The position numbers and the translations under genes are program-made. Below are positions 351 through 43,900 of a DNA stretch of 64,000 nucleotides, in pieces. The DNA lies in assembly GCF_040436345.1 (NCBI RefSeq), contig NC_133238.1:11162150-11226149 (forward strand). The letters are read 5' to 3'. The notes under the pieces were generated by a model. That model was given only the letters and a program-made list of their open reading frames with translations. It did not search any database and was not told the DNA's origin. Within the stretch, counting starts at the first letter, position 1. Each line of letters opens with the position of its first letter. The stretch is from Pagrus major (Eukaryota; Chordata; Actinopteri; Spariformes; Sparidae).

Positions 351-983
351 CTGTTTCTCCAGGCGCTCAGCCTTGGTGGACACACACTCGTGGCCTTTGT
401 GTGTGTTGCTGGTGCACAGCCAGCAGACGAACATCTTACAGTGGCGACAGTAGAACTCCTGCAGGTACTTGTGCTGGGTGCAGATCTTCTCAGCCAGGTT
501 GCCTGTGGGTGGGATCAGCTCATGCTGCTTCAGGGACTTCTTGGTCTGGTGGGGCTTCAGGTGGGCTTCGCAGAATGAGCTCATACATGCCAGGCAGCTC
601 TTGACTGCCTCTCGCTGTTCTCCTTTGCACATGTCGCATGGCACTGCTGCGGTGGAAAGCTTACCTTTGGATCTAGATGAGGAGGATGAAGCTCCCCCAT
701 GGGCTTTCCGCAAAGACTCACGCACGTCAGCTTTGAGGGCCCCTTTGCGGAGCTGCTCCACAGCCTCAGCCAGCATGGTGTTCCTGGACAGGGAGGGCTT
801 GGGGCAGAAGGTCTGGCGGCATTGTGGGCAGCTGTAGATCCCCTTGGGGTCATCTTTGCTCCAGTAGTCCTTGATGCAGCCCATGCAGTAGCTGTGTCCA
901 CAGGGGATGGTGACTGGATCATTAGGAAGATCCAGACACACAGGGCAGTTGAACTGCTCCTCTGTCCACAGTTTAGCACTCAT
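351..983 (-). CDS. TRIM-family E3 ubiquitin ligase, first coding exon (RING plus two B-boxes), finTRIM/TRIM25-like, partial
   Basis: The exon encodes 211 residues and ends in phase 0 at a GTAGGC donor (345-350). A C3HC4 RING is complete: C13, C16, C28, H30, C33, C36, C52, C55. A serine-rich linker (about 96-110) follows, then B-box 1 (C116-H145) and B-box 2 (C168-H198), ending in a Glu-Lys-Gln typical of TRIM exon 1. In this family the RING recruits an E2 and the later coiled coil dimerises the ligase; many fish members act in innate immunity. The start codon at 983 opens directly onto the RING and is the usual TRIM start. The coiled-coil and any B30.2 exon must lie beyond the left edge. The gene is divergent to NUDT15. 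The exact paralogue cannot be named; TRIM16- or TRIM25-like members are possible. Confidence 0.88.
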
Positions 984-1936: not shown

Positions 1937-2924
1937 ATGTCAAATAAAGCCGTAAAACGTCCAGGAGTTGGGGTCGGAGTGTTGGTGACAGATTCAGCCC
2001 ACCCAGGCTGTGTTCTCCTGGGGAAACGGAGAAGCGAGATGGGCAAAGGGACATACCAGCTCCCCGGTGGCCACTTGGAGTTTGGGTAGGAAGGTAGCTA
2101 GTTAGCAAAGTCCATTCACAAATATATGTGTGTATATTCCTCTCACTGTTGTGTGTTTCTCTGTCATTAGAAGATACATTATAACGAAATAAAGACATAT
2201 TAGACAGTTATCATTATGCCGAATTTCCCCAAACAGTTCAGCAAATATTTAGACATGTTTTGAAGTTGCATGGTTACAGGTGTCTGCCAAATAAGTGTGC
2301 AGGAATACCAATTTGCTATATTTTAAATGCAGTTTGGTGGAAGGTAGTGAGGCTTTTTGAGTCAGTCATCTTAAAGTAAATGTCCAGCCTGTTGAGGAGT
2401 GAAGGGGGACTAGTCTAAATATGTTACTCAATGTTCAGTCCATATGATCTGCATGACCTGAATGTGATGAACTCCAATGCATGCGACACTCATGTCATTG
2501 AATGAAAGGGAGACGTGGGAGGACTGCGCTCACAGAGAGGTGTTGGAGGAAGCAGGGGTTCGTTTGGTGAACGTCGGCTTTGCGTCAGTGGTGAACTCCA
2601 TCAGACTGGAGGAGCAGTACCACTACGTCACCATAATCATGCAAGGAAAACTCGACAGGAAGCAGTCAGGGGAGCCAGAGAACCTGGAGCCGGAGAAGAA
2701 TGAGGGTATGTGGAGTGGATCTAACATTAAATGGGAATAAATATCCCCACTCCCCTGAGTAGTTTATGATAAAAGAAATGTGTGGTTCTCTATCAGGTTG
2801 GACGTGGACGCAGTGGGACCAGTTTCCCCCTGAGGAGCAGCTCTTCTTGCCACTAGCCTGTCTGAGACAACAAGGCTTCCATCCGTTCAGGAACACAGTA
2901 ACAAACACTGAAACTCAGCTGTGA
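1937..2924 (+). CDS. nudt15: NUDT15-like Nudix nucleotide diphosphatase, complete in three exons (1937-2085, 2509-2705, 2797-2924)
   Basis: The spliced reading frame gives 157 aa (human NUDT15 is 164). All junctions are GT-AG and the phases agree: Gly50 and Gly116 are split codons. The N-terminal [11 protein letters not shown] matches the NUDT15 family. The Nudix box spans 45-67 (G45, E51, R59, E60, E63, E64, G66), a full Gx5Ex7REUxEExGU that holds the Mg-binding glutamates. The family hydrolyses oxidised and thio-modified (deoxy)guanosine triphosphates to monophosphates in the cytosol. The C-terminal half keeps the HYVTI strand and a Trp-rich exon 3 start. At the position of human Arg139 this protein has Ala136. 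The C-terminus is a few residues shorter than human. The last exon converges on the CPO copy, whose stop lies 380 nt away. A second copy of the exon-3 tail is found near 8904. Confidence 0.93.
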
Positions 2925-3304
2925 AACCGGCTGTTACAGCGGGAGACTTTTCTCGTTCCCCAAAGGATAAATGCAACACACATCAACAACACACATGTCG
3001 GTTGTGGTACATACTGTATTTTTTGCCAATATTATGTATATTTACTTTCTATTTGGGACACGCAGTTTGTCAGCTGTACATTCATCCATATTTAGAGCAA
3101 ATGATGTGATGATCAATGATGATATTCTAATGCATCAAGTATTGGCAGCAATGCGACATTTCAGATCATTTAGAGACACTTTATAGCAGTTTAATAATAG
3201 TTTGAACCAAGGATGCATTATTTATCAACAGACACATTTCCATACTTCCATACAAAAACTTTGTAGCTTAAAAACTGGAACCATTTCTGCAGGTTTTTTC
3301 CACC
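2925..3304. other. Convergent 3' spacer between NUDT15 and CPO copy A
   Basis: This holds the 3' UTR of both converging genes. No canonical AATAAA is obvious on either strand; GATAAA occurs at about 2966. The first part (to about 3010) and the last part (from about 3128) recur next to CPO copy B, which shows that the duplicated unit includes this spacer. Confidence 0.5.
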
Positions 3305-5144
3305 TCACATCAGGTTGGTGCCGGTGACACCCGCTGCTAACAGCAGGGCCCACAGGGTTGCAGCAGCAGTTGCCACAGCACCATTAAAGGTCTTGTCGTG
3401 GGCGTAGGTGATGATGTGCAGGGCTCCGCTGTAGGCCTCCTCGCACGTCGGCTGGATCTGGTCCTCGGGAAGCTCGAAAGCAAATGTCCCATTATCTCTC
3501 AGCTCGAAGGTAAAGGAGAAGGGGATCCCAGATAAACGAGCCCAGTCTTTAGATGTACCTGAGTGGGAATCTGTAGAAAGAGGTTACGAATATTACCGTT
3601 CTTTATGTAATATCCACTTTATTTTATTACTTTAACCCCTTCCATGGTCTGTAATCAGCAGTGATTTGTGGACTTACATAATATATCTGGCGAGGTTCCT
3701 ACTCTGTACTCTTTCCCGTGGACCTTCTTAATGGCTTCTGCTGCAGCCAGACCAACATCCATCTGAGGAACCAGACATTTAAAACTGTTAATCACTTTTT
3801 CACAATTTTGAGCATCTACAACAACTTTGTGTTCCTTTATACTGTAGCCTCATTAATCCTTAATATCATCCAAATATATAGAATGCTAAATATATATGGT
3901 ATATCTGTACAGCAATGTTTTATGACTTGGCAGCCAACTTACACATGGATATCAATACCATAGCATTATTTTTTACCTCAGTTTATATACACAGTATATT
4001 GTATACATATATGCATTTTAATTCCTACCCTAGTGCTACACCCATAAATTGGCCAAGCCTATATATCAACTGATAATCGCTTAATGTAAACGAGTTCTGT
4101 TAGTGACTTGTTGGCCAATTTGTTGTAAGAAATTGTAGTGCAATATATCGGTATTGTAACATCAAAACTGTTATTTCTTCACATTATGTCGGTAATTTCA
4201 GTTAATGTCATGATGTTTGGACTGAAATTCTTACATAGTGCACTGATGTCATTTTGAACAAAAAGGTCTATTGTGAAACTGTAAAATATCCTTCTCCATT
4301 ACATACAATGTAGTGTTTGACAACCACATTTGAGGGAGCATGGCAAATAATGTGTGTTAATGTATATAATCTGTGTAAGAATATTTGCTGATATATTAAT
4401 ATCAGAATTTTTAAATGTTTTTTTTAGACACCCCATATATCAATATCCGTATCAGCATCAAGTATGCAGTATCTGTCAGGTGTTAAGATGTAGAATTTTA
4501 CCAGTCTGATCAAGAGGACCAGGCAGGATTTTACAGCATCAATTTAAGGGTGCTCATAAACCAGTTTTGCTCCAGGTTCACTCATTGGAGATTCCTAATT
4601 GAAAACCTCATCACATCATCTGTGAACGTTGGGTGTGACTCTGCCAATCCAAAGACACATGGTGTTCTGCATAATTAATTCTCTCTGGATTGTGGCTCCA
4701 GTGAGTTATTACCTGCATCAGCCTCCCTGCTAACAGCTTCGTTTCCTGCTATCAATGCTTCACAGCTTCCTCCTGTTGTGTTCTGTCTTGGCAGATGAGG
4801 ACTGACGGCTTTGAGATGCCAACTGTGTCGAAACTGTACTATTATGTGTATGTTTTGTGTTTATCCAATGAGGGATATTAAATCCTAAACCTTGAAATAA
4901 ATTAATTTGTGCACTGAATTTTTTTTCTCGCAGATTTCACTCGTATACTATGGGTTTTTGTGATCTGCATAGGCAGTTTCTATGGCAATATGCAGAGCAT
5001 TCTCCTTACTAATGTAGAATCATGCAGTGATAATCAGGCCATAAGGATTCATATACACTTTTTATCCTGATATTATCTAGAATGCTGCGTGTGAATTCTC
5101 AGAAATGTGTAAAATATTCATCACTGTGTTTGCAGATGTAAGTA

Positions 5145-5180
5145 CCAGCTCATTGTAGTTGGAGTCAAGTTGGGGTGATC
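5145..5180 (-). other. cpo: Four-base deletion that breaks CPO copy A
   Basis: Aligning the ends of the two exon 7 copies (5146-5176 against 12032-12066) gives 31 nt against 35 nt between the same flanking words. The loss falls where copy B encodes Phe-Thr-Ala-Pro. The donor site GTACTT is kept, and no nearby donor restores the frame: the next GT downstream adds 21 nt, a multiple of three. Confidence 0.85.
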
Positions 5181-5514
5181 GTAGGGAACCAAGAGCAGCT
5201 GGCCGTAGGAGTGGATGGAGAAGAAACACAGGAACTCGTCGATCCGACTTCCTACAAAATAAGTGATGGCCGCGGCCTCGGGCTCAGACAAAGGTTGGCT
5301 CCCCGGGTAGGTTTGACTGCAGCAGTCAAACGACACCCCGACAGCTGAAAAGAGGAGCAAAATTAATAGATTTATCTGAATCAAATGTAGTCGTGACACC
5401 ACTTCTTCCCTTAACAGCTAGCTAAAAGCTTCAGCTTCACATGTTGGAAGCTTAGAAACTCTGTACCACATCTCTGATATAAATGTACACAAGTTTAAAG
5501 CTGTATTAACCTAT

Positions 5515-5950
5515 TTTTGGCCAGTTGGGGGAGGCAGAAACAAGCTGTGAACACAACCCCTTATAATAGCCAGAACTTTGACTTGACAATAGGGAAGAGC
5601 GAGTACACCATTATCTGTATCTGTTCGGCCAACTAAATTATATCTGTATCTGTATCAGTACTCTGAACGGGTGGGACTTATACCAGAAGTGGGTGGTGCC
5701 TAAACCTGACAGGGCTGAAAGTCTGAAGTCTGAAATCGGTTGATATGAAGTTGCCATATATATTGTTTATTAGAAAACTATTTTTAGAACAGACTTAAAT
5801 TGAGCTTAAGATGTTTTTGATCACGAACTTGAATAAATAAACTTCAGTGAACTAACCAGGGGATTTTCCTTAATCATGAGTATAAATATTGACACACTTG
5901 ATTGTTGTACTGGATACCCAAGTACTTGCACAGCCCTACTTCATGTCTTA
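5515..5950. repeat. Interspersed fish repeat in intron 6 of CPO copy A
   Basis: A block with the words for 'gagtacaccattatctgtat' and 'acccaagtacttgcacagcc' occurs here and at 13135-13325 in copy B. Copy A keeps about 170 nt of the middle that copy B lacks. The family looks like a short non-autonomous element, but it is not named. Confidence 0.5.
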
Positions 5951-6834
5951 GAAGTTGTTCAGCTTCAGTTGCCAGGGTCTCAAATCTTGTTAAAGAGCAT
6001 CATGGGCTATTACTAATTGGCTATTTTTCATGATTATCAAAGCAACAGGGTATATAAATAAGGAGATGTAGATCCACAATAAGACTCACTTCCCCATTTG
6101 GCGTCAAAGTTGCGGTTGAGGTCAGTTCCGTAACAACCGCAGTCCGAAGGTCCTGGTGACCTGTTCTTCCTCCACAGTCGTGTCTAAACGGGTCAAAATG
6201 ATCAGTAGGTTAAATCAGCTGGTTCTGATTATTCTCTTAATCTAGTAATGAATACATTTGGGGCCATTTGAGCATCAGAAATCAATTTATTCACTGATTG
6301 AGTTGTAGCTCATTTTAACATAACTACCATTGCTTTAATAGACTCAGATCATTCTCTCATTTCCTGTTCCCCTTCTTGAGGAACAATTTAGGACCCTAGA
6401 AAAGTAATTGGATAAATATCCATCAAAAATAAGCACTGACCGTTTCATTTGCCCAGGAGTAGATGTAGCCGTCCATGTTGAACACAGGGGTGACGTAGAA
6501 GTCCATGTTATTCATCATCTCCGCCATTTTCGGGTCTGTTTTGTATGCCTGCAGGATCTGATTTGAGAAAGCAAATGAAAACATCAGGGTTAGATTGATA
6601 CAGTGTATTGGAAGGATGATAAATCATCCTCTTGTTTTTCACTCAGTTCGACTAAATAACAACAGTTTGGAAACACACCGTTAATTAATGATAAATGTCT
6701 CTTACCTGACTGACAAAATACTGACAGAAGGCTGGGGCGATCCATTCCCTGGCGTGTATACCACAGTCCATCCAGATAGCTTTCTTTTTCTCTCCAGTAT
6801 TCACTCCAATCTGGTAGACAAATTAGGCACTTAA

Positions 6835-7000
6835 ATTTCTGTTGTTTGGCTTTACAGCTGTTGCCATTTTTGTTTTTTGGAGCCAGAAGTGACCATATTT
6901 GGACAAGAGGGTGGAGCTTGGGACGATATCCTGATTGGATCTGACTGAGAACCTGAGGATGCGCCATGGTAGCGACTTGTCTATTACAAGGTAGCCACAC
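6835..7000. repeat. Interspersed fish repeat in intron 3 of CPO copy A
   Basis: This segment (also at 14265-14402 in copy B) resembles a widespread fish repeat with the phrase 'gccagaagtgaccatatttg'. It predates the CPO duplication because both copies carry it at the same place. The long ORFs that cross it on the minus strand run through exon 4 into intron and are not genes. Confidence 0.5.
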
Positions 7001-8194
7001 CCTGAAGCATACCCTGCTTTATCATCTATTTTAATCTAAATGGGACCATAATTAAAAAATGAAATGAAGAGGACTTTAAACTAGCAATTGAGACCATAAA
7101 CTCATTAGGAAACTGTTCAATGAGGTAACAAATCAAGTGAGAAGTTGAGTCATTTTCTCATAAGCTTGCATTGAATCAGACCAGTGGAGTCGCCCCTGCT
7201 GGCTATTAGAAAGAAAGCAGCATTCGCTTCACTTTTCAGACCTGGACTCTTCGTCCAGGTCTTCGTCCAAAGTCGATGGGTTTACCTTGAGTAAGCTAAT
7301 GACCCTCTTCTCATAGGTCTGTCCATATTGCACTATGGTCACAACATCAGGGTTAGCCTTTGCAGTCTGCTCCATCCAGTCGCTGATCTGTAGTGAGGAG
7401 CATAGTTACACATCTGAGTATCTGTCTTTTGTATAATTGTGTAGTGATCTCATTAATGTGGGAGAGCAGTGGTCTGGCCTTCTTACCTCGTTCATGGGAT
7501 GGTATCTGTAGTAGTCATACGCTCTGTTGCATACACACCAAAATAATTAATGACATTATCAACATAAGTCAAGTAATCTTTATTCACAGTTGCTTCATAC
7601 AAACATACTTTTCTGCTTATACAGAGGCTGAGCAAATGGGTCTGAATTAAAGTTATATGTAAATCCAGCTAATTTGGTCACATTTCAGTGGATGAATGAA
7701 ATAAACTGCAAATTAAAATTCCATAACTGATGATCTATAAAGTTGTTACTTCATGATTTGTTAATGGTTAACAACAGGAATCCAAGCAAAAACAATTGCT
7801 GCTCTCACTAGGCGTCACGCCTTAAATCACGGCCACAGCTGCCATTCTTAGCTGATTATGTGGCCAAGAAATAGTCTCACACATAAACCCCCATAAAACC
7901 ACAAGTTTTTGTCTCTCTAGTGAACTTTAGATAACTGTTGTTAAGTTAAGTTTATCTCTCTAAAATATCAAACTATTGCTATAATTATTAGGTCAGATGC
8001 ATCAATTATAATGACATTAAAGATTGACTACGTTCAAATTATTTGGATAAAAAGTAGCTGATAGTACATTGTGTTACTGAATTTTGAACAAAGCCATCAT
8101 TATGCAATTTAATGAATAAAACTCACCTCTCTACTGTGGCTGCTCCCATCGCTGAAAGCAGCACCACAAGGCTCAGTACTACAGAGTTAAGCAT

Positions 8195-8368
8195 TGTCAC
8201 TTTGTGAGAGTAAACTCCTTGTTTGCAAGTGTTAAGTGTTAGTGAACCGACCTTGGGATGATACAAGCTTTTATAGAAGGGATCCGTCATATAAAGATAC
8301 ACCTTTGACTCAGGCGCAGACCACAGGCTGCGCACACATAATCATTGTGTCGGTTAATGTTTAATCTG
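8195..8368 (-). promoter_or_regulatory. Promoter of CPO copy A (TATA box and HNF1-like site)
   Basis: On the minus strand TATAAAAG sits at 8275-8268, about 75 nt before the ATG, leaving a short 5' UTR. Farther upstream 8353-8365 reads GTTAATGTTTAAT, two changes from the HNF1 palindrome. HNF1 drives many gut enzyme genes, so this fits an intestinal peptidase. Both motifs recur in copy B. Homology between the copies ends at about 8368. Confidence 0.6.
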
Positions 8369-8593
8369 TGTTTTTTCATGCTGATTTTTGTGCTTCAGTC
8401 AGCAATTTCAGTGGTTATATCAAAGCCCTTATACTTTCTTCCATAAATACTGACATTATCTCCATAGTTAGCCACAAAATCCATTGATGAATGTCACGTT
8501 ACTGCTTCTCTAATATTGCTCAAGCTCCAAGGTAGCATTTCCCACAATGCCTTTCATTAGTCCCTTCCTTCTAAACTCCCTCATCCATCTTAC
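8369..8593. other. Unique spacer between CPO copy A and the stranded TRIM exon
   Basis: The sequence here has no match after CPO copy B. It should be the intron that followed the TRIM exon, read on the minus strand. No ORF or repeat was recognised. Confidence 0.4.
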
Positions 8594-8827
8594 CTGCAGG
8601 TAGTAGATGTGGTCCTTGCAGCGGGCCAGGTCCTTCATCTCCGTGTCCCTCTTCTTCAGCACCTTGATCTCGGCCTCCAGGCTGTCTTCAACCTCCTGAG
8701 CCTGCTCCATCTTCTTCAGGCCAGCCTGATCCATCAGGTCCTCCAGCAGCTCCTGCAGAGGCTCCACCGAGCGCTGCAGCTTGGAAAACACCTGCTCCGT
8801 GTCGTCGTGTACCCTGCCTGCAGAACG
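8594..8827 (-). pseudogene. Orphan TRIM coiled-coil exon (234 nt)
   Basis: The segment is exactly 234 nt, the usual length of the TRIM coiled-coil exon, and is open throughout (78 residues). It ends with HIYYLQ followed by a GTAAGA donor, and starts after an AG acceptor (8829-8828). The content is heptad-like and charged (Leu, Glu, Lys rich), as in finTRIM dimerisation helices. It lies on the same strand as the TRIM exon at 351-983 but about 8 kb upstream of it, on the wrong side to be spliced after it. No RING/B-box exon is found on its 5' side before CPO copy B. It is therefore read as a remnant of a duplicated TRIM gene. Confidence 0.8.
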
Positions 8828-8903
8828 CTGTGCAGGCACGGACAGAGACGATAAGGTTGTCATGTCTCAGTAAGGGTTATGGGAAATGTAGATTTTGGTC
8901 TTT

Positions 8904-9055
8904 TGTCTGCGACAACAAGGCTTCCATCCGTTCAGGAACACAGTAACAAACACTGAAACTCAGCTGTGAAACCACCTGTTACAGCGGGAGACTTTTCTCG
9001 TTCCCCAAAGGATAAATCCAACACACATCAACAACACACACGTTGGTTGTGGTAC
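8904..9055 (+). pseudogene. Duplicated tail of NUDT15 exon 3 and its 3' flank
   Basis: The sequence repeats 2859-3010 almost base for base: the last 20 or so codons of NUDT15, its stop and the 3' flank. The earlier NUDT15 exons are absent. It marks the left edge of the second duplicated unit. The junction word tgtctg is shared by both sides. Confidence 0.88.
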
Positions 9056-9088
<33 letters not shown>

Positions 9089-9233
9089 CATTTTATTTAA
9101 AGGTGCCTTTCAAAGCATTCAAGGACACCACACATAGCAACAACAGTACATCAAAAAAAAAATCAGGAAACATTTTAGTGCAATTATGAAAGATAAATAA
9201 ATAAATAAATAAATGAATAAATGAATGAATAAA
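9056..9233. repeat. AAT and AAAT microsatellites around a short fish repeat
   Basis: (AAT)n covers about 9057-9087 and an imperfect (AAAT)n about 9192-9233. The piece between them begins with a phrase seen in many fish repeats (an AAT run followed by 'gcattttatttaaaggtgcc'). The block is missing from the equivalent place in copy A (after 3010), so it arrived after duplication or was lost there. Confidence 0.7.
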
Positions 9234-9354
9234 TATGAAGATGGGATTACATAGTCCAATAATATAGAATAGGCAAGGGTGTGATTATATGATTAGTCTG
9301 ATACAGAGTAAACCACTCACAATAAGTGTGTTTTCAGGCGGGATTTAACGGTCC

Positions 9355-9622
9355 TTTGGCCTTTTATTGTGGCCAGCCTAAGGCACACCTGTGCAATATT
9401 CATGCTGTCTAATCAGCATCTTGATATGCCACACCTGTGAGGTGGGATGGATTTTCTCGGCAAAGGAGAAGTGCTCACTAACACAGATTTAAACAGATTT
9501 GTGAACAATATTTGAGGGAAATGGTCTTTTGTGTATATAGAAAAAGTTTTAGATCTTTGAGCTCAGCTCATGAAAAATGGGAGCAAAAACAAAAGTGTTG
9601 CGTTTATATTTTTGTTCAGTGT
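9355..9622. mobile_element. MITE-like DNA element in the 3' flank of CPO copy B
   Basis: The run from 'ccttttattgtggccagcct' to 'tttttgttcagtgta' is recognisable as an abundant short fish DNA element, highly uniform between genomes. It has no coding capacity. It sits only in the copy B unit, directly before the point where homology with copy A resumes. Confidence 0.6.
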
Positions 9623-9752
9623 ACTTTCTATTTTGAACACACAGTTTGTCAGCTGTACATTCATTCATATTTAGAGCAAATGATGCAATAAATAAAAGGC
9701 AATATACATTTTTCTATTAGCTTTATTCACAAATGTTAAAAGCACACACATT

Positions 9753-9866
9753 AAAGGTGCACTATGTAGTTTTCGGGAAGACATTTCATTGTATTCATTG
9801 GGTGGATTTCTTTAATGCCTAAACAAACTAAATAAACAAACTCCAAAACTACATAGTGCCCCTTTT
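9753..9866. mobile_element. MITE family 1 (ends AGGTGCACTATGTAGTTTT), short copy
   Basis: The left end AAAGGTGCACTATGTAGTTTT is mirrored by AAAACTACATAGTGCCCCTTTT on the right, giving terminal inverted repeats of about 20 nt, flanked by TTAA. The interior is deleted to about 75 nt. Fuller copies are at 28848-29193, 45085-45416 and 51342-51593. Confidence 0.75.
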
Positions 9867-10137
9867 AATACACGAAAAGCCAAACATATTTAAATAGTTT
9901 TAGGCAAGTTGTTATTGCTCTTTATATGTAAGTGAAAAACAAAAAAACTTGGGAATATTCTAATGCATCAAGTATTGGCAGCAATGCGACATTTCAGATC
10001 ATTTAAAGACACTTTATAGCAGTTTAATAATAGTTTGAACCAAGGATGCATTATTTATCAACAGACACATTTCCATACTTCCATACAAAAACTTTGTAGC
10101 TTAAAAACTGGAACCATTTCTGCAGGTTTTTTCCACC

Positions 10138-13100
10138 TCACATCAGGTTGGTGCCGGTGACACCCGCTGCTAACAGCAGGGCCCACAGGGTTGCAGCAGC
10201 AGTTGCCACAGCACCATTAAAGGTCTTGTCGTGGGCGTAGGTGATGATGTGCAGGGCTCCGCTGTAGGCCTCCTCGCACGTCGGCTGGATCTGGTCCTCG
10301 GGAAGCTTGAAGCCAAATGTCCCATTATCTCTCAGCTCGAAAGTAAAGGAGAAGGGGATCCCAGAAAAACGAGCCCAGTCTCTAGATGAACCTGAGTTGG
10401 CATCTGTAGAAAGAGGTTACGGATATTACCGTTCTTTATGTAATATCCACTTTATTTTATTACTTTAACCCCTTCCATGGTCTGTAATCAGCAGTGATTT
10501 GTGGACTTACATAATATAGCTGGCGAGGTTCCTACTCTGTACTCTTTCCCGTGGACCTTCTTAATGGCTTCTGCTGCAGCCAGACCCACGTTCATCTGAG
10601 GAACCAGACATTTAAAACTGTTAATCACTTGTTTATGAGCATCTACAACAACTTTGTGTTCCTTTATACTGTAGATTTTCCCTAGTGGTTCTTGGAGACA
10701 CCAGGAAGCAGTTTTACAAGTCAGGAAATGCAGATTTAAACTCAGTTTTCATCAGTTTGAGTGCATCCCTGTGACACTATCCTTGATATGGTGCACAAAC
10801 ACTGTGGCGGGGGAGTGTGAAATGTTTTTTACACCCAGTCAGAACAGATGAATATGTAGATTAGATTTGTGGAGCAAACGAGTGCTGCAACCCAATGCCA
10901 TTTACAGTTTGTTTACATTAATACCAACACAAGGGTTGAACTGTTTAAGGTGTATTTTCTGTTTTCAGTTTGAAGACAGTAAGAAGGTGTGTTTAGATGT
11001 ACTAAATATCAACAATTTGCATATTTTCCATTAACATTTTTGTAAGTATTTAGGGAGGGATTTCTTGCCAGTTGCCTTTTTTGGGGAATCCAGACTATAG
11101 CCTCATTAATCATTCATTTTTTAGGTTGATACCAAAATTGTTTATAAAAATCCATTAATAATATCATCCAAATATATATAATGTTAAATATATGTTAAAT
11201 ATGTATGGTATATCTGTACTGCAATTTTTTGTTACTTAGCAGCCAACTTACACATGGATATCAATACCTTAGCATTATTTTTGGTCTTCGAAAATAGTCA
11301 TACCTTAGTTTATATACACAGTATATTGTATACATATATGCGTTTTAATTCCTACCCTAGTGCTACACCCATAAATTGGCAAAGCAGGATGTTACAGCAT
11401 CAATTTAAGGGTGCTCATAAACCAGTTTTGCTCCAGGTTCACTCATTTGAGATTCCTAATTGAAAACCTCATCACATCATCTGTGAACGTCGGGTGTGAC
11501 TCTGCCAATCCAAAAACACATGGTGTTGTTTGAGTGGCTCAGGAGAGCTGGCTGGACATAATCCTGTTTTGCATAATTCTCTCTGGATTGTGGCTCCAGT
11601 GAGTTATTACCTGCATCAGCCTCCCTGCTAACAGCTTCGTTTCCTGCTATCAATGCTTCACAGCTTCCTCTTGTTGTGTTCTGTCTTGGCAGATGAGGAC
11701 TGACGGCTTTGAGATGCCAGCTGTGTCGAAACTGTACTATTATGTGTATGTTTTGTGTTTATCCAATGAGGGATATTAAATCCTAAACCTTGAAATAAAT
11801 TAATTTGTGTACTGAATTTTTTTTCTCGCAGATTTCACACTTTTTGTGATCTGCATAGGCAGTTTCTATGGCAATATGCAGAGTATTCTCCTTATTAATG
11901 TAGAATCATGCAGTGATAATCAGGCCATAAGGATTCATATACACTTTTTATCCTGATATTACCTAGAATGCTGCGTGTGAATTCTCAGAAATGTGTGAAA
12001 TATTCATCATTGCATTTGCAGATGTAAATACCAGCTCGTTGTAGTTGGGGGCGGTGAAGTTGGGGTGTCCGTAGGGAACCAAGAGCAGCTGGCCGTAGGA
12101 GTGGATGGTGAGGAAACACAGGAACTCGTCGATCCGACTTCCTACAAAATAAGTGACGGCAGCGGCCTCGGGCTCAGACACAGGTTGGCTCCCTGGGTAG
12201 GTTTGACTGCAGCAGTTAAACGACACCCCGACAGCTGAAAAGAGGAGCAAAATTAATAGATTTATCTGAATCGAATGTAGTTGTGACCCCACTTCTTCCC
12301 TTAACAGTTAGCTAAAAGCTTCAGCTTCACATGTTGAAAGCTTAGAAACTCTGTACCACATCTCTAATATAAATGTACACAAGTTTAAAGCTGTATTACC
12401 CTATTTTTGGCCACTTGGGGGAGGCAGAAACAAGCTGTGAACACAACTTGTTAGCAAACAGTTACCCAATCCAGCAGATGCAGAGCAATATTATCATTCA
12501 TTTAGATCCATGTGTCTGGCATATTCACTGACTTTTAGCTCAGTCTTTTGTTATTCCCAACTCCTGAGAGAAATGCTCCACTTTGATAGCTAGCTGGTTG
12601 CTAACTGTATCTTTCTGATATTTGGTACAGGGCGGTAGAGGCGCTAAAATGATCCGTAGAGGTGAGGGGAGCTGTATAGTCGGGTGATATGTCTGTCAAT
12701 TTATCACCGTGAGCGACCACTTACAAATACAATTAGTAATGTCATCCATTGTTAGTATAAAAATCTTGATTATAGCATAATTAGCATAGCTAGCATAGCA
12801 TAGCTTTATCCAAACCAAAGTTATTAAACTGATGTCACCTAAAGTGCAATATGTAAGAATTGGCCGACTGTCAAATTCATACTCAAAATGAAAACGGGGC
12901 ATCATATAACTGGAGTAAACACTAAGTGCTGCTAACTGTAACTGGTGTTAGCTAGTTAGCTCAGTTAGCCATGCAGCTAGTAGTTCAAACTGGGAGCTTG
13001 GGGACCAGGGGACTGTGTTTACACCACTAGCACAGGAGCTTTGGACTTCAGTAGAAGTAAAACTGCTATTTATTTGTTGATAATTTTACCTGCTTTGCAA

Positions 13101-16100
13101 ATGTTTTCACTAAAATTCTCACATTTTGCCCCTTTTAATAGCCAGAACTTTGACTTGGCAATAGGGAAGAGCGAGTACACCATTATCTGTATCTTTTCAT
13201 TTTTGATCACAAACTTGAATAAATAAACTTCAGTGAACTAACCAGGGGATTTTCCTTAATCATGAGTATAAATATTGACACACTTGATTGTTGTACTGGA
13301 TACCCAAGTACTTGCACAGCCCTACTTCATGTCTTAGAAGTTGTTCAGTTTCTGTTGCCAGGGTCTCAAATCCTGTTAAAAAGCATCATGGGGCATTAAA
13401 TTCAGCTAGCTGTGTCCAAATTCAATTCTAAGAGCTCTAATTGGCTATTTTTCATGATTATCAAAGCAACAGGGTATATAAATAAGGAGATGTAGATCCA
13501 CAATAAGACTCACTTCCCCAGTTGGCGTCAAAGTTGCGGTTGAGGTCAGTTCCGTAACAACCGCAGTCCGAAGGTCCTGGTGACCTGTTCTTCCTCCACA
13601 GTCGTGTCTAAACGGGTCAGAATGATCAGTAGGTTAAATCAGCTGGTTCTGATTATTCTCTTAATCTAGTAATTAATATATTTGGGGCCATTTGATCATC
13701 AGAAATCAATTTATTCACTGATTGAGTTGTAGCTCATTTTAACATAACTACCATTGCTTTAATAGACTCAGATCATTCTCTCATTTCCTGTTCCCCTTCT
13801 TGAGGAACAATTTAGGACCCTAGAAAAGTAATTGGATAAATATCCATCAAAAATAAGCACTGACCGTTTCATTTGCCCAGGAGTAGATGTAGCCGTCCAT
13901 GTTGAGCACAGGGGTAACGTAGAAGTCCATGTTATTCATCATCTCCGCCATTTTCGGGTCTGTTTTGTATGCTTGCAGGATCTGATTTGAGAAAGCAAAT
14001 GAAAACATCAGGGTTAGATTGATACAGTGTATTGGAAGGATGATAAATCATCCTCTTGTTTTTCACTCAGTTCAGCTAAATAACAACAGTTTGGAAACAC
14101 ACTGTTAATTAATGATAAATGTCTCTTACCTGACTGACAAAATACTGACAGAAGGCTGGGGCGATCCATTCCCTGGCGTGTATACCACAGTCCATCCAGA
14201 TAGCTTTCTTTTTCTCTCCAGTATTCACTCCAATCTGGAAGACAAATTAGGCACTTAAATTTCTGTTGTTTGGCTTTACAGCTGTTGCCATTTTTGTTTT
14301 TTGGAGCCAGAAGTGACCATATTTGGACAAGAGGGTGGAGCTTGGGACGATATCCTGATTGGATCTGACTGAGAACCTGAGGATGCGCCATGGTAGCGAC
14401 TTGAATATGTGAACGTCATGCTGTATTGAAGAAGACTTTAAACTAGCAATTGAGACCATAAACTCATTAGGAAACTGTTCAATGAGGTAACAAATCAAGT
14501 GAGAATTAGAGTCATTTTCTCATAAGCTTACATTCAATCAGACCAGTGGAGTCGCCCCTGCTGGCTATTAGAAAGAAAGCAGCATTCGCTTCACTTTTCA
14601 GACCTGGACTCTTCGTCCAGGTCTTCGTCCAAAGTCGATGGGTTTACCTTGAGTAAGCTAATGACCCTCTTCTCATAGGTCTGTCCATACTGCACTATGG
14701 TCACAACATCAGGGTTAGCCTTTGCAGTCTGCTCCATCCAGTCGCTGATCTGTAGTGAGGAGCATAGTTACACATCTGAGTATCTGTCTTTTGTATAATT
14801 GTGTAGTGATCTCATTAATGTGGGAGAGCAGTGGTCTGGCCTTCTTACCTCGTGCATGGGATGGTATCTGTAGTAGTCATACGCTCTGTTGCATACACAC
14901 CAAAATAATTAATGACATTATCAACATAAGTCAAGTAATCTTTATTCACAGTTGCTTCATACAAACGTACTGTTCTGCTTATACAGAGGCTGAGCAAATG
15001 GGTCTGAATTAAAGTTATGAAAGTATTATTGAAATTATTATTATTGAAAGTCCATCATTTGGTAATGGTTAACAACAGGAGTTCAACCATTAAATCAACA
15101 TGAGTCTTGCATTAGTTAATCATTAAGGACCCTTATTATAAGGGTGTTGCCAGTTTTACAACTTATTTCACGTATGCAGTACAAATTGGGAAATAAGTCT
15201 ATTGGCTATCCTGCCGTGATTCCGATGAGAAGACCGATATCACTCTCATATTTTTGCACTAGTTGATGGTTAGCTTAGTCTAGTGAGACTGGGAGCAGGG
15301 AGAACAGCATGCATCGCTCTGTCCAAGGGTAAAAGATAATCCACCTACCAGCACCTCTTAAGCTCACAGTAAACACATTATTCTACATCCTGTTTGTTAA
15401 ATCTGTAAGAGTGTAAAAAGGGAACTTGAAAGCTAACTTGACCATCTGGAAAGGCGCCACGAGAAACTATTTGGAAAAGGGCAGGTGATTGGACGAACCG
15501 TCTTTTTATCACGGGCTAATTTCGGCCAATCAGATCAACAGGAGGAGAGCGAGAGAAACTCTTACTAAAGCCATTCGAGAGAAGAGTTAAAACATCTTTA
15601 CCATCGAGAAAAGCCTTTAGTATCACTTCTTTGCTCTTCTTACAATGAAATATATGCTCCAGTTCTGATATAACCGATGCTATAGCAGCTACGCTAATGT
15701 CTTGATGAGCCGCCAATGAACAGTTGCTTCTCTCACTAGGCGTCACACCTTTAATCACGGCCACAGCTGCCATCTCTAGCTGATTATGCGGCCAAAAAAT
15801 AGTTGCACACATAAACCCCCATAAAACCACAAGTTTTTGTCTCTCCAGTGAGCTTTAGAGGTGCTGTTAACAGTTATTTTTACCTTTGGACAGAGCTAGT
15901 TTACTTACTAGAGTAAGTTTATCTCCCTAAAATGTCAAAATATTGCTATAATTATTAGGTTGGATGCATCAATTATAATGACAATGAAAATTAACTACAT
16001 TCAGATTATTTGGATAAAAAGTAACTTAATGAATAAAACTCACCTCTCTACTGTGGCTGCTCCCATCGCTGAAAGCAGCACCACAAGGCTCAGTACTACA

Positions 16101-16111
16101 GAGTTAAGCAT
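10138..16111 (-). CDS. cpo: Carboxypeptidase O copy B, intact nine-exon GPI-anchored metallocarboxypeptidase
   Basis: Exons: 16111-16044, 14885-14849, 14749-14648, 14234-14130, 13981-13865, 13607-13514, 12234-12032, 10595-10511, 10403-10138. Together they give 358 aa with consistent phases. Residues 1-19 are a signal peptide, and the enzyme domain begins almost at once (YDYYRYHPM, from 25): the activation propeptide of CPA/CPB is absent, as in CPO. M14 catalytic parts are present: zinc ligands H88, E91 (HAREW) and H219 (IHSYGQ), R148 and N166-R167 for the substrate carboxylate, Y271 (Tyr248 of CPA) and general base E293 (Glu270). The specificity residue 255 is R278, a basic residue as in human CPO, predicting removal of C-terminal Glu/Asp. 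The last 20 or so residues are hydrophobic after FNGAVATA, a GPI signal, so the enzyme should sit on the apical enterocyte surface. Sequon NFT lies at 233-235. It is the likely functional copy. Confidence 0.93.
12447..13135. mobile_element. Copy-B-specific insertion containing a MITE family 2 element
   Basis: Copy A passes straight from 'gtgaacacaac' to 'cccttataatagcc' (5560), while copy B has about 690 nt between these words. The right part (12841-13139) starts AAAGTGCAATATGTAAGAATTGG and ends at TTTTAA, matching the family also at 24955, 29945, 42497, 56228, 61045 and 63722. The left part (12447-12840) is another repeat-like stretch. Confidence 0.65.
15040..15720. repeat. Repeat cluster in intron 1 of CPO copy B, largely missing from copy A
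   Basis: About 15265-15375 belongs to the fish repeat with 'gcttagcataaagactggaa'-type words (also 38270-38340, 41188-41285 and 46615-46930). About 15510-15700 resembles 45545-45700, including an 'aatcagatcaacagg' word and a stretch reading like 'KAFLDGKD' on the minus strand. Copy A lacks most of this block near 7790. The 104-aa ORF across it is repeat-derived. Confidence 0.55.
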
Positions 16112-16285
16112 TGTCACTTTGTGAGAGTAAACTCCTTGTTTGCAAGTGTTAAGTGTTAGTGAACCGACCTTGGGATGGTACAAGCTTTTATAGAAGGGAT
16201 CCCTCAGATAAAGATACACCTTTGACTCAGGCGCAGACCACAGGCTGCGCAAACATGATCATTGTGTTGGTTAATGTTTAATCTG
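16112..16285 (-). promoter_or_regulatory. Promoter of CPO copy B
   Basis: TATAAAAG lies at 16192-16185 (minus strand) about 75 nt before the ATG. An HNF1-like GTTAATGTTTAAT lies at 16270-16282. Both are the same as in copy A, so any expression difference between copies must lie elsewhere. Homology with copy A stops at about 16285. Confidence 0.6.
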
Positions 16286-17900
16286 AAATGATTACTTTAT
16301 ATGCTTAAGAATAAAAACAATTATTATATTGGCCTGTTACTTTGATAAGTCCTGCTCATCAGGAATGCCAAATAAATTCACATGAGACTATTGTTTAGTT
16401 CATGACTGTTCTGATCTGAAGTGTATGAGGAATCATTACCGCAATGTTTTCCTCAGTTCAGTCTGGAAACCTTTAATTACACTGAGAGACTGCCGTCAGT
16501 AGAACTGCAGCTCCTACCAGCCCGTTAAGAGGTGGTGTTAGCGGTCAGTGGTTGTATAAATAACAAGTGGTCCTTGAGCATACAGTCATAAATGTGCACA
16601 ATAAAATAATAAGCTGTTGGGTCCAGTAGTATGTGAGAGATTAGCTGCACACACATGGACACACATACACTTGGCCAAACCCATTGTCCTCTCAAGGCTT
16701 ACACCTGGGTGGGATAATAAGAGGGAGAAGATTAGATAAGTTAGGCGACATTAAGTCAATGACGTGAAGGGAAGCAATGATGAGATAGATTAATGAAAAA
16801 GAGCAAAAGGGCCGCACACTACCAGGCCATAAAAGCACTACACGTGTTATTCTGTTAAACAAAGCGACATGAGATTGGGTGGGCGGTTCCATGTCAGTAA
16901 AAGTCTGTTCTTGATTATCTGTAACCGTAAGCACCCTTTAAATCAGTGGTGTTGCTAACGCTAGCTGATTATTGTTTAAGGTTTTTGTTGTTAAAGGATG
17001 CTGTAATTTAAAGAGTCCATTTCACTTGAAGAGTTTTAAAGGTGATTTTGATTTGATTTGAGGTCTTAAGGTGTGTTGAAAACTCACACAAGAATTAATT
17101 CATTAAAGGAACCACAGTGTATGTTAAATAGGATCTAATATTAGCTTACATGATAAATTCAGTGCTTTAATAAGTTAAAGTAAGTTTAAAAGGTGATCTA
17201 AAAACAGATTAAAATAAGATTAAAATAGGTTAAAACAGATATGAAATTGGTTTAAAAATTAGCTTCAAGTAGGTCCAAAACCTAGCAAGATCAAATGAAC
17301 ATTTAAATGGTTCAATACACTGATTACTGTGCTTATGTTTATTTCTGTTTACATTTTATTTCATTTCATGTCTTCAAGCAACTAATACAGCACAGATATT
17401 TTTTCTATAAAACTTACCTGTCGTTGATGAGTCTTATTTGCTTTTGCTACTTATATCTCAGCGTCTAAACACTCATTTCTCCAGTGAGCGAACTTAAAAT
17501 TCTTCTGATGCACTAGTCCTATTGATTATTGGTTTCTATAGATGTTGTCTGTACCACCCAGTGCCTGATGTTGCAATTTGGGGCTGAGACCGGTTACACC
17601 CGCCTCACACTCTGAAAACCTCTGCTATAGAGAATATAGGCTACAATATAGTATAGAAAATACAAAATACATAGAAGGTTCAAATATAGAAAAAAACATG
17701 TAGTCTACAAACCATTTGTGTACTGCAATGTCTTTTTGCGTTTCTGACCACATGCATACCAATATCAGGTGAATATTGACAATCTGTGTGCAGGTGCACT
17801 ACTACCTGTCTCCACTATTGCTAGAACTTCCCCTAATATATTTCACTAAATTTTGTTTGTTATAATGTCAGTTAGTCATGCCACATTCCTTCTGTTATAG
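16286..17900. other. Intergenic stretch without recognised features
   Basis: This is AT-rich with scattered short 'ttaaaatag' runs (17180-17250). None of the small ORFs has splice context, family motifs or codon character of a gene. Confidence 0.4.
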
Positions 17901-18224: not shown

Positions 18225-18429
18225 CGTTATCACCGCAGAGATAGGGCTCGTCTCGACCACAAGTATGACCTGATGTACGCCAAGAGGGCCTTCGTCCACT
18301 GGTCCATCGGAGAGGGGATGGAGGAGGGAGAGTTCTCAGACGCCGGAGAGGACATGGCTGGAGGAGAAGGATTACAAAGAGGTGGGAACCGACAGTGTCA
18401 GGGAGGAGGATGAAGGCGAGGAGTACTAG
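18225..18429 (+). pseudogene. Alpha-tubulin C-terminal fragment, frameshifted
   Basis: The segment [18 protein letters not shown] followed by [10 protein letters not shown] is the conserved alpha-tubulin C-terminal helix region. After GEDMA the frame shifts by a small deletion. The second frame then gives [12 protein letters not shown] and an acidic end with the terminal Glu-Glu-Tyr and TAG at 18427. One more base is missing just before the arginine at the start (AEAW is broken). No upstream tubulin exons occur. It is a decayed fragment, either a processed copy or a stranded last exon. It is not able to make tubulin. Confidence 0.88.
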
Positions 18430-37900: not shown

Positions 37901-40900
37901 CTAACGGTAGCAAAACGTTAGCGAGTAACGCAATGTTTACCCAAAGGTTTTAGTAATTTATCAGTAACATTAATGAACTACTCAGGTCAAACAAATTAGC
38001 TACATATATCCGCTTGCCTGCTGTAACATTTGCTAAATAACAGAAACATTTCAACACGTCAATACAACCAATACTACCAAGCTAACGTTAACAGCAAAGA
38101 GTAGAAAACTGACTCACTAAGGCTGTTCGCTTAGCTTAGCTGTTTTATCTGTGTATATGTATCTGCATGTCAAATGTAACGTTAGCTAAATAACGGTAAC
38201 ATTTCAACACAACACATCAAAAACGACCAATACCGCTTAGCTGACTTCATTCACTAAGGTGGTTAGCTTAGCTTAGCATAAAGACTGAAAACAGGGGGAA
38301 ACAGCTAGCCTGGCTAATCAACATAACAGCACCTTTGGAGCTAATTAGATGTGCTAATTTAACAAATTATTATTCTAACATTGTTGACAACAGAGAGGAG
38401 CATGTACAGGCATGTACTTGCTGTAATACATTGATTAATTAGTATGATTTCTGATATGCTTTTTATTTTGAAGGTGTTGAGATTTAGTCATCCCTCTGTG
38501 TGGGAGGACAGAATTAAATTATGAAAATGAAATGGCATTGACTCACTGTGGCCCAAAAAGCCCACATATAAACATTACCTACCTGAACATACAGCCCTGT
38601 TTGTGTCCCGGTTCCGCTCCTCATGACGAGTCTGCGTGCCTTCAAGGTGATGTGTGGGCTCGGCTGTGGACCTTTAGACTTGTCGCATGTCGCTGTCTCT
38701 AATCAGAGGACTCAGTCAGCGCAGCACATGGCCTGCCCCGACCTTGTCCTGTTAGATAGTCTCTCTCTCAGACAGACCCGCTGTGACAGGCCGGTGTGAG
38801 TGAAGAGAGCATCCCAAAAACCCTGCGGCTGGGCCGTCCTGCTCTCCCTGATGCTCAGCTGTATGGCAGCGCTGCGAGAGGGGAAACATAGGAAACACAC
38901 TTATTTTCAGTTTCATTCTTAGTTTTCGTTCGTCCTTTGTAAATATTCTATTTTTTATATGCCTGTAGGGGCTCAGTGTGGTGGGGATCCTTTATGAAAT
39001 GCTAAAAACCGTGTTAGATCTCGAATTTAAAGGCCTGGTTCTTGCCAATAATAAACTTGAACATTACATTAGTGTAATGCCAAGTAGACAACTTTAAATA
39101 TTATGAACTTGAATGATATTAAATAGCTGCTATTTATAATTCCACATAGTCCTCCAGCAATTGTAGCCGTTTTGTGTCTTTAATTATCATTTTGTATCTG
39201 ATTGTGGTTGTTAAACTTCTCTGTGAGGTTGTTTTGCATCTCTTTGTATTCATTTTGTGTCTCTTTAAAGTTTTTTTAGGTATTTTTTTGCATCTTATTA
39301 TTGTTGTTTTATGTTGCTTCTTGGTTGTTATGGTCATTTTGTGTCTCTATGAAGATGTTTCATGTCATTTTACTCCTCTGTGTGGTTGTTTTGCATCTCT
39401 TTCTGGTTATCTTGACCAGGGGCTCATTGTCAGTGCCCCTTAACCTGCTCAGTCATCCCTTCATGCCAACAAGGTGTCACCCTCTGACTCCTGCAGGGCC
39501 TTGCCACCTCTGGCCACCCTCTGCCATAAACCTGTTTCTATGATTTGTATTTCATTCATTTAAAGGGTATAAACCTGAGAGAAAACACACGGTGCAAATA
39601 CGGCTGCCATATTATAACTTCAATTATCTTTTTGCTTGTGGGGCGAGCAGGAAAATATTGACACTAGTGCAATTCAAAATGTTGATTACGAGAAGTTATC
39701 CTGTCTTGTAACACACTTTGGTGTTGTTAATGTGCCGTGGATTCTTATTTCCCAGGCGAACAACCTGTTACAGTCGGTTCTCTTCATGTATCAATGTTAT
39801 TTAGTTTTCTCTGAATTTTTCCCTCTTATTTTATTATTTCATGAGTTATTCAATACGTTGGTCGCCCGAATGATTGCAGGGAAAAGCAAAATGCGTGGAG
39901 ATGAAGAAATGTTCCCCATTTCAAAGTAGTTTTTGTTTTGTAAATCTGGTGGAAGTCTCTTGCCGACCAGCCAGTTCATTTACTGCAGTATATCTTCCTC
40001 TCCTGCCTCTTTTATTCGTTTTTCCGCTTCTTCTTCTTTGTTTATTGCTGTTCCCAGTAACATTAAACATGTGGTTGTTCCTCACGACCACAAGAACAAG
40101 TACCCACATGAGCACACTGAGAGGTTTTGATGAAAGAAGTTAATATTTTCTATTTAAGAAGACAGATTCATTCAGCGTATCCCATTAGTTCAAAGTAATT
40201 CACTTTCGCAGATGTGTTTCCTTCCTTTAATTGATCATCTGAACTTTGCAAAAACAGATCTTATAAATGATATCCTCCCTCTCCCTCTCTCTGTTAGAGA
40301 TGTCTCTGTCGCTGCGCATCCTGCTCTACTCGCTCATCTTCCTGCTCAGCGTCTTCGGCAACCTGCTGATCATCGTGGTCCTGATCCTGAACAAGCGCAT
40401 GCGGACCGTCACCAACTCCTTCCTGCTGTCGCTGGCGGTCAGCGACCTCATGATGGCCATCTTCTGCATGCCCTTCACCCTCATCCCCAACATCCTGGAG
40501 GACTTCATCTTCGGAGGCGCCATGTGCAAGACCGTCTCCTACTTTATGGGTGAGGATGAATCGTTTAATTAACTACATTTTACAACATGCTCCATTTCCT
40601 GTGTGTGTTTTTTTTAAATAAGGGACGCTGTGAAGAGTTTTTGTTACAAAACAGGGCTGTGATCTCTCCAGCTGGCAGAGCTGGTAATAATGGATGGCCT
40701 GGTACTGATCAATAAAACCCATTTTTATTAGGTCACTTATCTTTATAATCACGAGGCCCATTAATGCTACACATCACCTTTTCACTGGTGTAGTCCACAT
40801 TTAAAGATAAGCTCTAGCATTAACATAAAACATATTTTTATGTACACCTCATGTTTTAAAGCAACAAGGAAATGCTCTGCACACATATGTTGTCTTATTA

Positions 40901-43900
40901 CTTCCCGTCTACCCTAGGAAATGCACCTAATCCGGACCAGAGCATGGAAGGCCCTATTGGAATTGAAGGATTTATTATTTTTCCTCCTAAATAACATTTT
41001 TGAGGGGTTAAACATGCTCAAAAACTTATGAAACTTTGCACAAAATTCAATCATGGTGGAAATGTATGTATTTCATGGGTTTCAGCCATAGGTGTTGCAA
41101 AATGGCTCGCCAGCACTCCCTAAAATGCAGCCCAGGACTACTTCAACCTCCATGAATGACATTCGTGGTCATGACCTACACCTAAAGAGGAAGTCAGCCA
41201 TTTTGATACCTTTGGACAGAGCCAGGCTAGCTGTTTACCCCGTTTCCTGTTTTTCTGAGCCAAGCTAAGATAAGTTAAGTAAGCGAGTTACCTTTGTACC
41301 AAAAATCATCTTTTAAACTGATATCTGTGGTGGATGTGCTGGTGTCAGGGCATAATTGTAGTCAGTTGCGTTGTGCTCACTTTGTTTTTAATATTTGATG
41401 GCAATACTGCTTAGAAGTTAAGTAATAGAAGAGGAAACAACAAGTTTGAACTGATTTGAATGTTGAGTTTGGGAGAAAAATACCAAAAGCCTCTTTTGCA
41501 AGCAATTATTTCTTCTTCATTTAATGTCTGAATGAAATGCAAATTGGAGCCGCATGAAACAGACACATTATTCTGACATCAACAGTAATCTGGCCTATTG
41601 TTGGAGCTGACAGCCATTCAGAAAATGTGCTCCAGCTTAAGAGGTAAGAAGAAAGTAAGTGAGATTCCTGCCTGAAAATTGCTCCATATCTAAGAAGTGC
41701 CTGTCTTTCAGAGAGGCTTTTCTCCGGCCTTCATTTCGCCTGTCAGAAGGTAACCATCGTGCTCAAAGTGCTCGAACAGTCACACATCTCCGGGAGTGTG
41801 ACTTAGCGATGAGCTGGCTCCCATCAGGCCAGAGTCGAGGTGCCACGTGAGGCCCTGAGTCACACTGAGGCTCAGAAAGAAATCCAGATCTGCTGCAGTA
41901 CACTTCAGTGTCTTCGCTTGACTTTGAGCTTTGAATGGGTTGAGAAAAGCTATTGAATAGTGAAGTCCACAATCCTATTATTGTCTCAGAAATGCAATGC
42001 AGCCTCTGTGAGAACAGGTTCGCTGAATCTCTTTTCAATTACTGGGCTCCCTTAGCTGTGATAAGGAGCCGCAGCTGCCTCGAACTTTGAATTCAAACTT
42101 TGAGTGACTGCTTTGTTTTATGCTCGTCACTTTAGTCAAGGTAAAGGCTGCTGCGGGGTTTAGCTGATAATGAATGATGAATCACTTAACCTCAGGAATG
42201 CTGACTGTGAATAATGAAGAGGATTTACTCCACAGCAAATGTGATAGATGTTACTTCCTAACTCTGCTACCTATATTTTATGCACAATAAATGCAATGAA
42301 TGTCATTAGTGTAAGTTTGAATTTAAATGATTTGAATAGATGATTAAAGAGTTGTATTAGCGGTTATTCCGGCTAGTTAGCAGGCAAGTCAAATTATAGT
42401 GGATGATATGAGCTATCGATAGCTTCCTCCATTTTGGACTCTCCATTCCCTCAAAGGTCAGGGCTAACCCTCACCCACTGTCAAAGTTCACAAACTTAAA
42501 GGTGCAATATGTAAGTTTGTTAGTTAGCTTGTTAATTCGGTTAGCCATACAGCTAGCAGTCTGCGGCAGCTTCAACCAGGATTCTGTCTTTTTTCCCGCC
42601 TTTTTTTATTGCCATATTAGTTTCACCTGTCTCTTATTAGTCTTCCCTCCCTTGTGTATTATGTCTGTGTCTCTTTCCCCCTCTCTCTGTCAGTTTTTGT
42701 CTTCACGTCGGTCGCCTGGTCCCCTTTTATCCTTGTGTTTTTCTGGCATTTGTGCTCTTGGGTTCCTGCTTTTATCGCCTGCCTTGTCTTTTGTGGATTC
42801 AGCTTTTTCCTTAATAAAGCTCGCCTTTTGTTGCGTCTCCCTGCCCGCCTTAGTTTCTTGCATAGGGCTCCCCTTTTTGCCTGACCATAACACATTCACT
42901 GGAATCACTTTCATGCGACTTTGGTACGCTAGCAGCATGATTTAATGCATTGGTTCCTCATCAAATGCTCTTAAGGATTTAGCACGTTGTCTGGGGGTTG
43001 AGCAAGTTGATTCATCACCTATTTCATTAGCGAACAACCTTGTCCAGACAAACAAGAGACTCATGACAAAGAAATTGAGATCAGGAGAGTTATAATGTTG
43101 GCCAGCCGGCAGCCAGAGAGGGGACAGCCTGAGAAGATAAAACATAACATTAAGAAATTGAGGTACCGCCACTGTCGCCAGGATAAAATGTTAGCAATTA
43201 ACGTTTCTGCAAACTTTGTTTGCATATTTCACATTCATACATGTCATAGGCTGTTCAAAACGTATCATAACACGTTCACATCACATGTTTATTACCTGAC
43301 TTTTGGCATTTGTAAGTGACCCCACTGGATATTTTTGTATTGTACCCCGGGACAATTTGCAGCCGTCTTGTTGGCGACCAAAATATATTTATTTAAAGCC
43401 AAACCACGATGTTTTTCGAACCCTGACCAAGTGTTTTTTGTGCCTAAACCTAACCAGCCTATAATTGTGACAAGCGAGAAATAGAAAACTGAACCCAAAG
43501 AATCGTTTTAACTGTAAGTTTTAACTGATCTGTGGTTTACAGAAACTTACTTTACCAACATGTATTCCGGCAATTGTTGTAAAACTAGTATTTCTACCTT
43601 TGAAAAGTGTAGTACATGGGAATCAACAGAAGTGTGTGCAGTGGGCATATGACTTCCAGATGTCACACATCTGTGCCTGGACCATCACTCCAACAATAAG
43701 TACAGTCATTAAGAAGACAACTGGTGATGAGGGAACACAAATTCATTTTACTTCCTGACATGAAAATGGTCAAACTGAATGATTTGAAGCAAAATATCAT
43801 TTAATCGTTCATCGACAAGCCTCAATCCAACCTCCTCCAAGTGTCAGATCTGAGCCTCACATGAGCGAACCTCCTCCATCGGCCAAAACCAATCAATACA

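Follow-up and report, generated by a model that had tools for sequence, protein, structure and literature searches.

A TRIM coiled-coil exon and a NUDT15 tail between the tandem CPO copies of Pagrus major: probable remains of a local duplication

Organization of the locus

The window, a stretch of 64 kb (G000:C24:11162150-11226149), is part of the Pagrus major assembly that served as the searched genome (785,883,843 bases in 25 contigs). Two neighbouring blocks are found at its left end, and in both the order is identical: TRIM on the minus strand, NUDT15 on the plus strand and CPO on the minus strand. Major features are listed below in window coordinates, except for the first.

C24:11161312-11161545, minus strand: exon 3 of the parent TRIM gene, 234 nt, 604-837 bp left of the window
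351..983, minus strand: exon 1 of the parent TRIM gene, with RING and B-boxes (Pfam RING and B-box)
1937..2924, plus strand: intact NUDT15, 157 aa, exons 1937-2085, 2509-2705 and 2797-2924
3305..8194, minus strand: CPO copy A, nine exons, net loss of 4 nt in exon 7 (5146-5344)
8369..8572, no strand: filler of 204 bp between the upstream sequence of CPO A and the TRIM piece
8573..8903, minus strand: TRIM piece, with 21 bp of intron 3, exon 3 and about 76 bp of intron 2
8594-8827, minus strand: relic of the TRIM coiled-coil exon (exon 3), 234 nt, 78 codons, open, splice sites retained
8898..9058, plus strand: end of NUDT15 exon 3 (its final 24 codons, counting the stop) with the sequence that follows
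10138..16111, minus strand: CPO copy B, intact frame of 358 aa
16285/16286, no strand: right end of the homology between CPO A and B, paired with 8368 in copy A (BLAST and alignment)

The parent TRIM gene continues beyond the left edge of the window, where its exons span C24 positions from about 11157653 to 11161762: the 96-nt exon 2, the 234-nt exon 3, one more exon and one that encodes PRY/SPRY. Exons 2 and 3 carry splice signals, and all exons inspected are open. In having coiled-coil exons of 96 and 234 nt the gene resembles the zebrafish finTRIM (ftr) genes, whose two coiled-coil exons have these lengths in the passages available from PMC2657112. Its nearest solved structures are TRIM25 for the RING exon (best PDB match, E 8.2e-32) and TRIM16 for the PRY/SPRY exon, with TRIM14 and TRIM25 close behind.

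Intact NUDT15 has NUDT15 chains as its best PDB matches (E 1.6e-60). The genome search returned four matching stretches, which are the three exons of this gene and the tail in block 2 (residues 133-157); no second full NUDT15 was found in that search, and the intact gene in the window is the sole full copy found. By its sequence, the tail in block 2 is a derivative of the window's own intact NUDT15. BLAST aligns 8904-9058 with 2859-3013 at 95.5% identity. By eye, the homology starts earlier, at 8898/2853, where TGT CTG is common to both, and the first mismatch (AGA/CGA) encodes Arg in both. Counted from 8898, the tail has 12 differences over 161 aligned bases.

CPO B has carboxypeptidase O 5mrv as its best PDB match (E 6.4e-115). 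The spliced frame of CPO A, as assembled and allowing for a possible assembly error, ends at the exon 7/8 join after the frameshift. The two copies have nine matching exons, with Ks 0.046 and Ka 0.025 when 3 codons are skipped. A genome search with CPO returned 37 matching stretches, 14 of them within copies A and B (12 at 78-90% identity and two, extending into introns, at 57 and 60%). The 23 stretches elsewhere, with a best E-value of 3.9e-12 at 56% and a top identity of 75% over 32 residues (C9), are presumably other carboxypeptidase genes; a further close CPO copy beyond A and B was not found in the genome search. With a frameshift in CPO A and an intact CPO B, the decay of the two blocks is reciprocal: block 1 keeps NUDT15 and the TRIM gene, and block 2 keeps only CPO B. 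After decay, the two blocks thus amount to roughly one working copy of each gene.

Stretches 9059-9621, 9686-9954, 12448-13128 and 15090-15718 of block 2 do not align with block 1. Some of them match elsewhere in the window, and as sequences they are probably transposable-element insertions.

The lone TRIM exon and its parent

The relic at 8594-8827 is a coiled-coil exon of canonical TRIM size and phase (0/0), with the acceptor ...TGCACAG and the donor GTAAG. Pfam TRIM_CC covers all 78 of its residues (profile positions 20-97, E 6.2e-16), and no TRIM match was found for it in the PDB. It has filler and CPO A on its left and the NUDT15 tail on its right, and no RING, B-box or SPRY part was found adjoining it. 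Parent exons 2 and 4 were not detected in 8300-10100, where their scores of 20 and 17 compare with shuffle maxima of 22 and 21. Searches of viral contigs with TRIM exons 3 and 1 gave 8 and 14 pattern matches, none of which was confirmed.

The first-pass annotation, which described the arrangement of TRIM exon, NUDT15 tail and CPO B, predicted a 234-nt TRIM exon with similar flanks to the left of the window. The arrangement is real by BLAST, Pfam and the genome search, and the exon lies about 0.6 kb outside the window, with strand and order as predicted. In the genome search, window positions 8573-8906 pair with C24:11161291-11161622 at 94% in the same orientation, and direct alignment of 8573-8905 with positions -858..-526 left of the window gives 93.7% identity. 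The flanks agree with the prediction over 8573-8905; the remaining part, 8369-8572, has no match next to the parent exon. With E-values of 1.6e-142 for the TRIM part of the junction and 1.2e-63 for the NUDT15 part, chance similarity is excluded.

Relic and parent exon are identical at 71 of 78 residues (91%) and differ at 7. Among the 150 candidates scored, of 247, in the protein search of the genome, 36 matches were obtained, namely the relic, the parent and 34 others at 28-41% identity; the parent exon 3 is the only close relative in this set, and the next match by E-value has 35%. A distant TRIM paralogue as the source of the exon is ruled out by this next match of 35% and by the maximum of 41% elsewhere among these candidates. 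The presence of intron flanks on both sides of the exon rules out a processed copy.

Decay is not strongly evident in the exon itself, whose Pfam score is not below that of the parent (59.0 vs 57.2 bits); it shows in the loss of all other TRIM exons. The exon's Ka of 0.039 and Ks of 0.128 against the parent can be explained by constraint on the parent itself. Neither does the open frame point to function, since the exon also stays open in 80% of 20,000 neutral simulations (K 0.033, half assigned to the relic's side). When the polarity of the changes is judged by 27 distant TRIM exons (loci L008-L035), residues 16, 23, 71 and perhaps 38, a position at which two alignments disagree, changed on the relic's side to Lys, Pro, Lys and Lys, and residues 13, 14 and 47 changed on the parent's side.

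The exon had been described as fused to the NUDT15 tail. It is not part of a fusion gene, because the TRIM exon lies on the minus strand and the NUDT15 tail on the plus strand, and because the exon's phase of 0 is incompatible with that of CPO exon 2 after an exon 1 of 68 nt.

A probable tandem duplication followed by loss in the second copy

The TRIM piece, the NUDT15 tail and CPO B are adjacent to one another, lie in the same orientation as their counterparts and have each a unique parent in the neighbouring block, the 204-bp filler being the one exception to this pattern of a tandem segmental duplication. It is almost certain that the pieces are of local origin, whether they arose by duplication and deletion or in a single replicative event. 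The best explanation, and a probable one, is that a TRIM-NUDT15-CPO segment was duplicated in tandem and that the second copy later lost part of its interior. In this scheme, an ancestral segment of about 9.2 kb, running from TRIM intron 3 through TRIM exons 3-1, NUDT15 and CPO to position 8368, would have been duplicated head to tail. Expressed in parent coordinates, the unit extends from -858 (TRIM intron 3) to 8368, or 9,227 bp. About 3.4 kb between TRIM intron 2 and NUDT15 exon 3 would then have been lost from the second copy, so that a solitary TRIM exon, the NUDT15 tail and CPO B would remain. Block 2 lacks the counterpart of about -527 to 2852 (3,380 bp), a stretch that holds TRIM exons 2 and 1 together with the first two exons of NUDT15 and a portion of its third. 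The undeleted parent block lies next door and the remainder is collinear with it, as is characteristic of a secondary deletion. At the join, 3 bp (TGT) are common to TRIM and NUDT15 by eye; by calculation, an overlap of 3 or more bp is expected by chance in about 5% of cases.

The core of the first-pass annotation, a tandem TRIM-NUDT15-CPO duplication and a deletion, is thus supported by the local parent exon, the order and the strands. Its duplicated block was to have contained the whole TRIM gene; the unit as seen begins within TRIM intron 3, and the flank match stops at 8573. Its two events account for the order and the strands, and the 204-bp filler needs something more. Several points count against duplication and subsequent deletion: sequence 8369-8572 is left unexplained, divergence is uneven, a 3-bp overlap at the join has a chance expectation of about 5%, and the Pfam score of the relic is not lower than that of its parent. 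The sequences establish what the three pieces are, which local parents they have, their order and strands, and where homology stops; that there were two separate steps, with the duplication first, is what we infer.

The filler masks the original join of the duplication and with it any repeat homology at the unit ends that unequal crossing over would predict, the ends having been compared within the BLAST and alignment runs. A search of the whole genome at E<=10, with simple repeats and very common words skipped, returned only the filler's match to itself. A derivation from TRIM intron 3 was not accepted, as the local score of 23 compares with a mean of 21.9 and a maximum of 28 in 100 shuffles; when the whole flank was compared, 107/300 shuffles scored as well, and in an anchored extension 47/300 did, although two narrower stretches picked by hand were equalled by 5/300 and 1/300.

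Divergence of the two blocks

The relics differ from their parents at 33 of 543 sites when pooled (6.1%), positions 8891-8897, which adjoin an indel, being excluded from the count. Differences are found in the TRIM exon (13/234), its intron stubs (1/21 and 3/63), the NUDT15 coding tail (6/72) and the sequence downstream of it (6/89 and 4/64). The bodies of CPO A and B differ at 95 of 3835 sites (2.5%), as counted in 12 BLAST blocks with non-aligning stretches omitted. CPO intron 1 (7791-8055 vs 15719-16022) is exceptional with 26/251 differences (10.4%), and the remaining aligned CPO blocks differ by 1.4-4.3%. In Fisher tests on segments picked after viewing the alignment, the CPO body is distinct from the relics (p 2.8e-5) and from intron 1 (p 9.1e-9), and the relics compared with intron 1 give p 0.04.

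Constraint fails to explain the low value of the CPO body, because its non-coding part also differs by only about 2.3% (64/2762). Judging from the sequences, later gene conversion is the probable reason for the similarity of the CPO bodies, and the contrast with intron 1 looks like a gene-conversion mosaic. Given the uneven divergence, a single age needs gene conversion as an extra assumption. Duplicated haplotypes in the assembly are an unlikely cause, given a 10% difference between the copies in intron 1, large indels and a junction sequence that is unique.

Alternative explanations

The same final order could have been produced by a single replicative event (fork stalling and template switching), which is possible, if clearly less likely than duplication with subsequent deletion. 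The fork, having copied CPO, would have switched back to TRIM for 331 bp, skipped 3.4 kb ahead to NUDT15 exon 3 and continued through CPO; the filler would be a further short template or would have been made at the join. The parents, the order and the strands fit such an event, the 3-bp overlap at the TRIM/NUDT15 join is consistent with it, and a filler of 204 bp at the other join suits a complex event. It requires at least two jumps in one event, however, and a template for the filler was not found in the assembly. The data do not distinguish duplication and deletion from one replicative event with two jumps.

An improbable alternative is that the CPO pair is old and has been kept alike by conversion, and that the TRIM-NUDT15 piece entered through a recent tract of gene conversion or break-induced replication that ran off the end of CPO. 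Sequence 8369-8572 would then be an old region upstream of CPO A that has since diverged, the junction would record run-off conversion, and the CPO pair would be much older than its sequence suggests. The patchy divergence of CPO is in keeping with this, as is a weak, collinear likeness of the filler to 16286-16457, which came from several comparisons. The anchored score of this alignment was equalled by 0 of 300 shuffles and, in repeated controls, by 3/1000 query shuffles, 9/1000 target shuffles and 8/1500 random anchors, and in one local scheme 1 of 385 random pieces was as good. Against it, the likeness was found after several tries, three other local schemes were matched by 79/392, 52/386 and 33/388 random pieces, and similarity drops abruptly at 8368.

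Finally, the TRIM exon might be a functional captured exon that is spliced into a regional transcript, as its open frame, its two retained splice sites, its undiminished Pfam score and its location on the strand of CPO A, upstream of that gene, would allow, but this is very improbable given the neutral simulations, a phase at odds with CPO exon 2, relic-side replacements that include Arg to Pro within the coiled coil as well as Glu to Lys, and the absence of adjoining RING, B-box or SPRY parts from what was found.

Comparison with other duplications

In many fish species CPO occurs in tandem copies with nudt15 on one side, gene conversion has been reported, and some copies are predicted to be pseudogenes or pseudoenzymes, according to the passages available from PMC9925722, which ascribe the tandem copies to unequal crossing over as inferred from synteny. 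The CPO copies of Pagrus major are likewise tandem and adjacent to NUDT15. Breakpoints are absent from those passages and TRIM is absent from the main text, whereas here the TRIM and NUDT15 remains mark the edge of the unit and an internal loss. The locus gives near base-level edges for one fish CPO tandem duplication, whose unit included NUDT15 as well as a portion of a TRIM gene. In Drosophila yakuba, duplication with a secondary deletion is reported in the available passages of PMC5460883, and there too a gene fragment remains at a duplication after a second loss. That case concerns population samples and a change in expression, whereas the fish copies are diverged. The junction itself is not described in the papers listed by the literature searches, which covered few subscription papers.

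In all likelihood neither the TRIM piece nor the NUDT15 piece is functional in itself, and what has lasted is the second CPO gene. The junction is most likely ordinary genomic debris with a readable history.

Other features of the window and the genome

Directly to the right of the duplicated unit lies a dispersed repeat at 16563-16670; among the 40 matches listed for 16200-16800, 38 come from elsewhere in the genome and hit about this stretch. At 18246-18383 there is a fragment of 46 residues, of which the first 39 match residues 389-427 in the C-terminal part of alpha-tubulin (E 1.1e-17), from its sequence probably a pseudogene piece. GPCR exons, two of which were checked in Pfam, occupy 40267-59544 on the plus strand, and the last of them has cholecystokinin receptors A and B as its best matches (E 1.3e-49).

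Elsewhere in the genome, G000:C13:26780964-26926945 contains at least 21 TRIM coiled-coil matches, all on the minus strand and with 28-32% identity to the query. They are about 4-17 kb apart, and each lies in an open frame of 561-566 codons. By its sequence this array is a tandem TRIM expansion, with a predicted coiled coil within a long single open frame.
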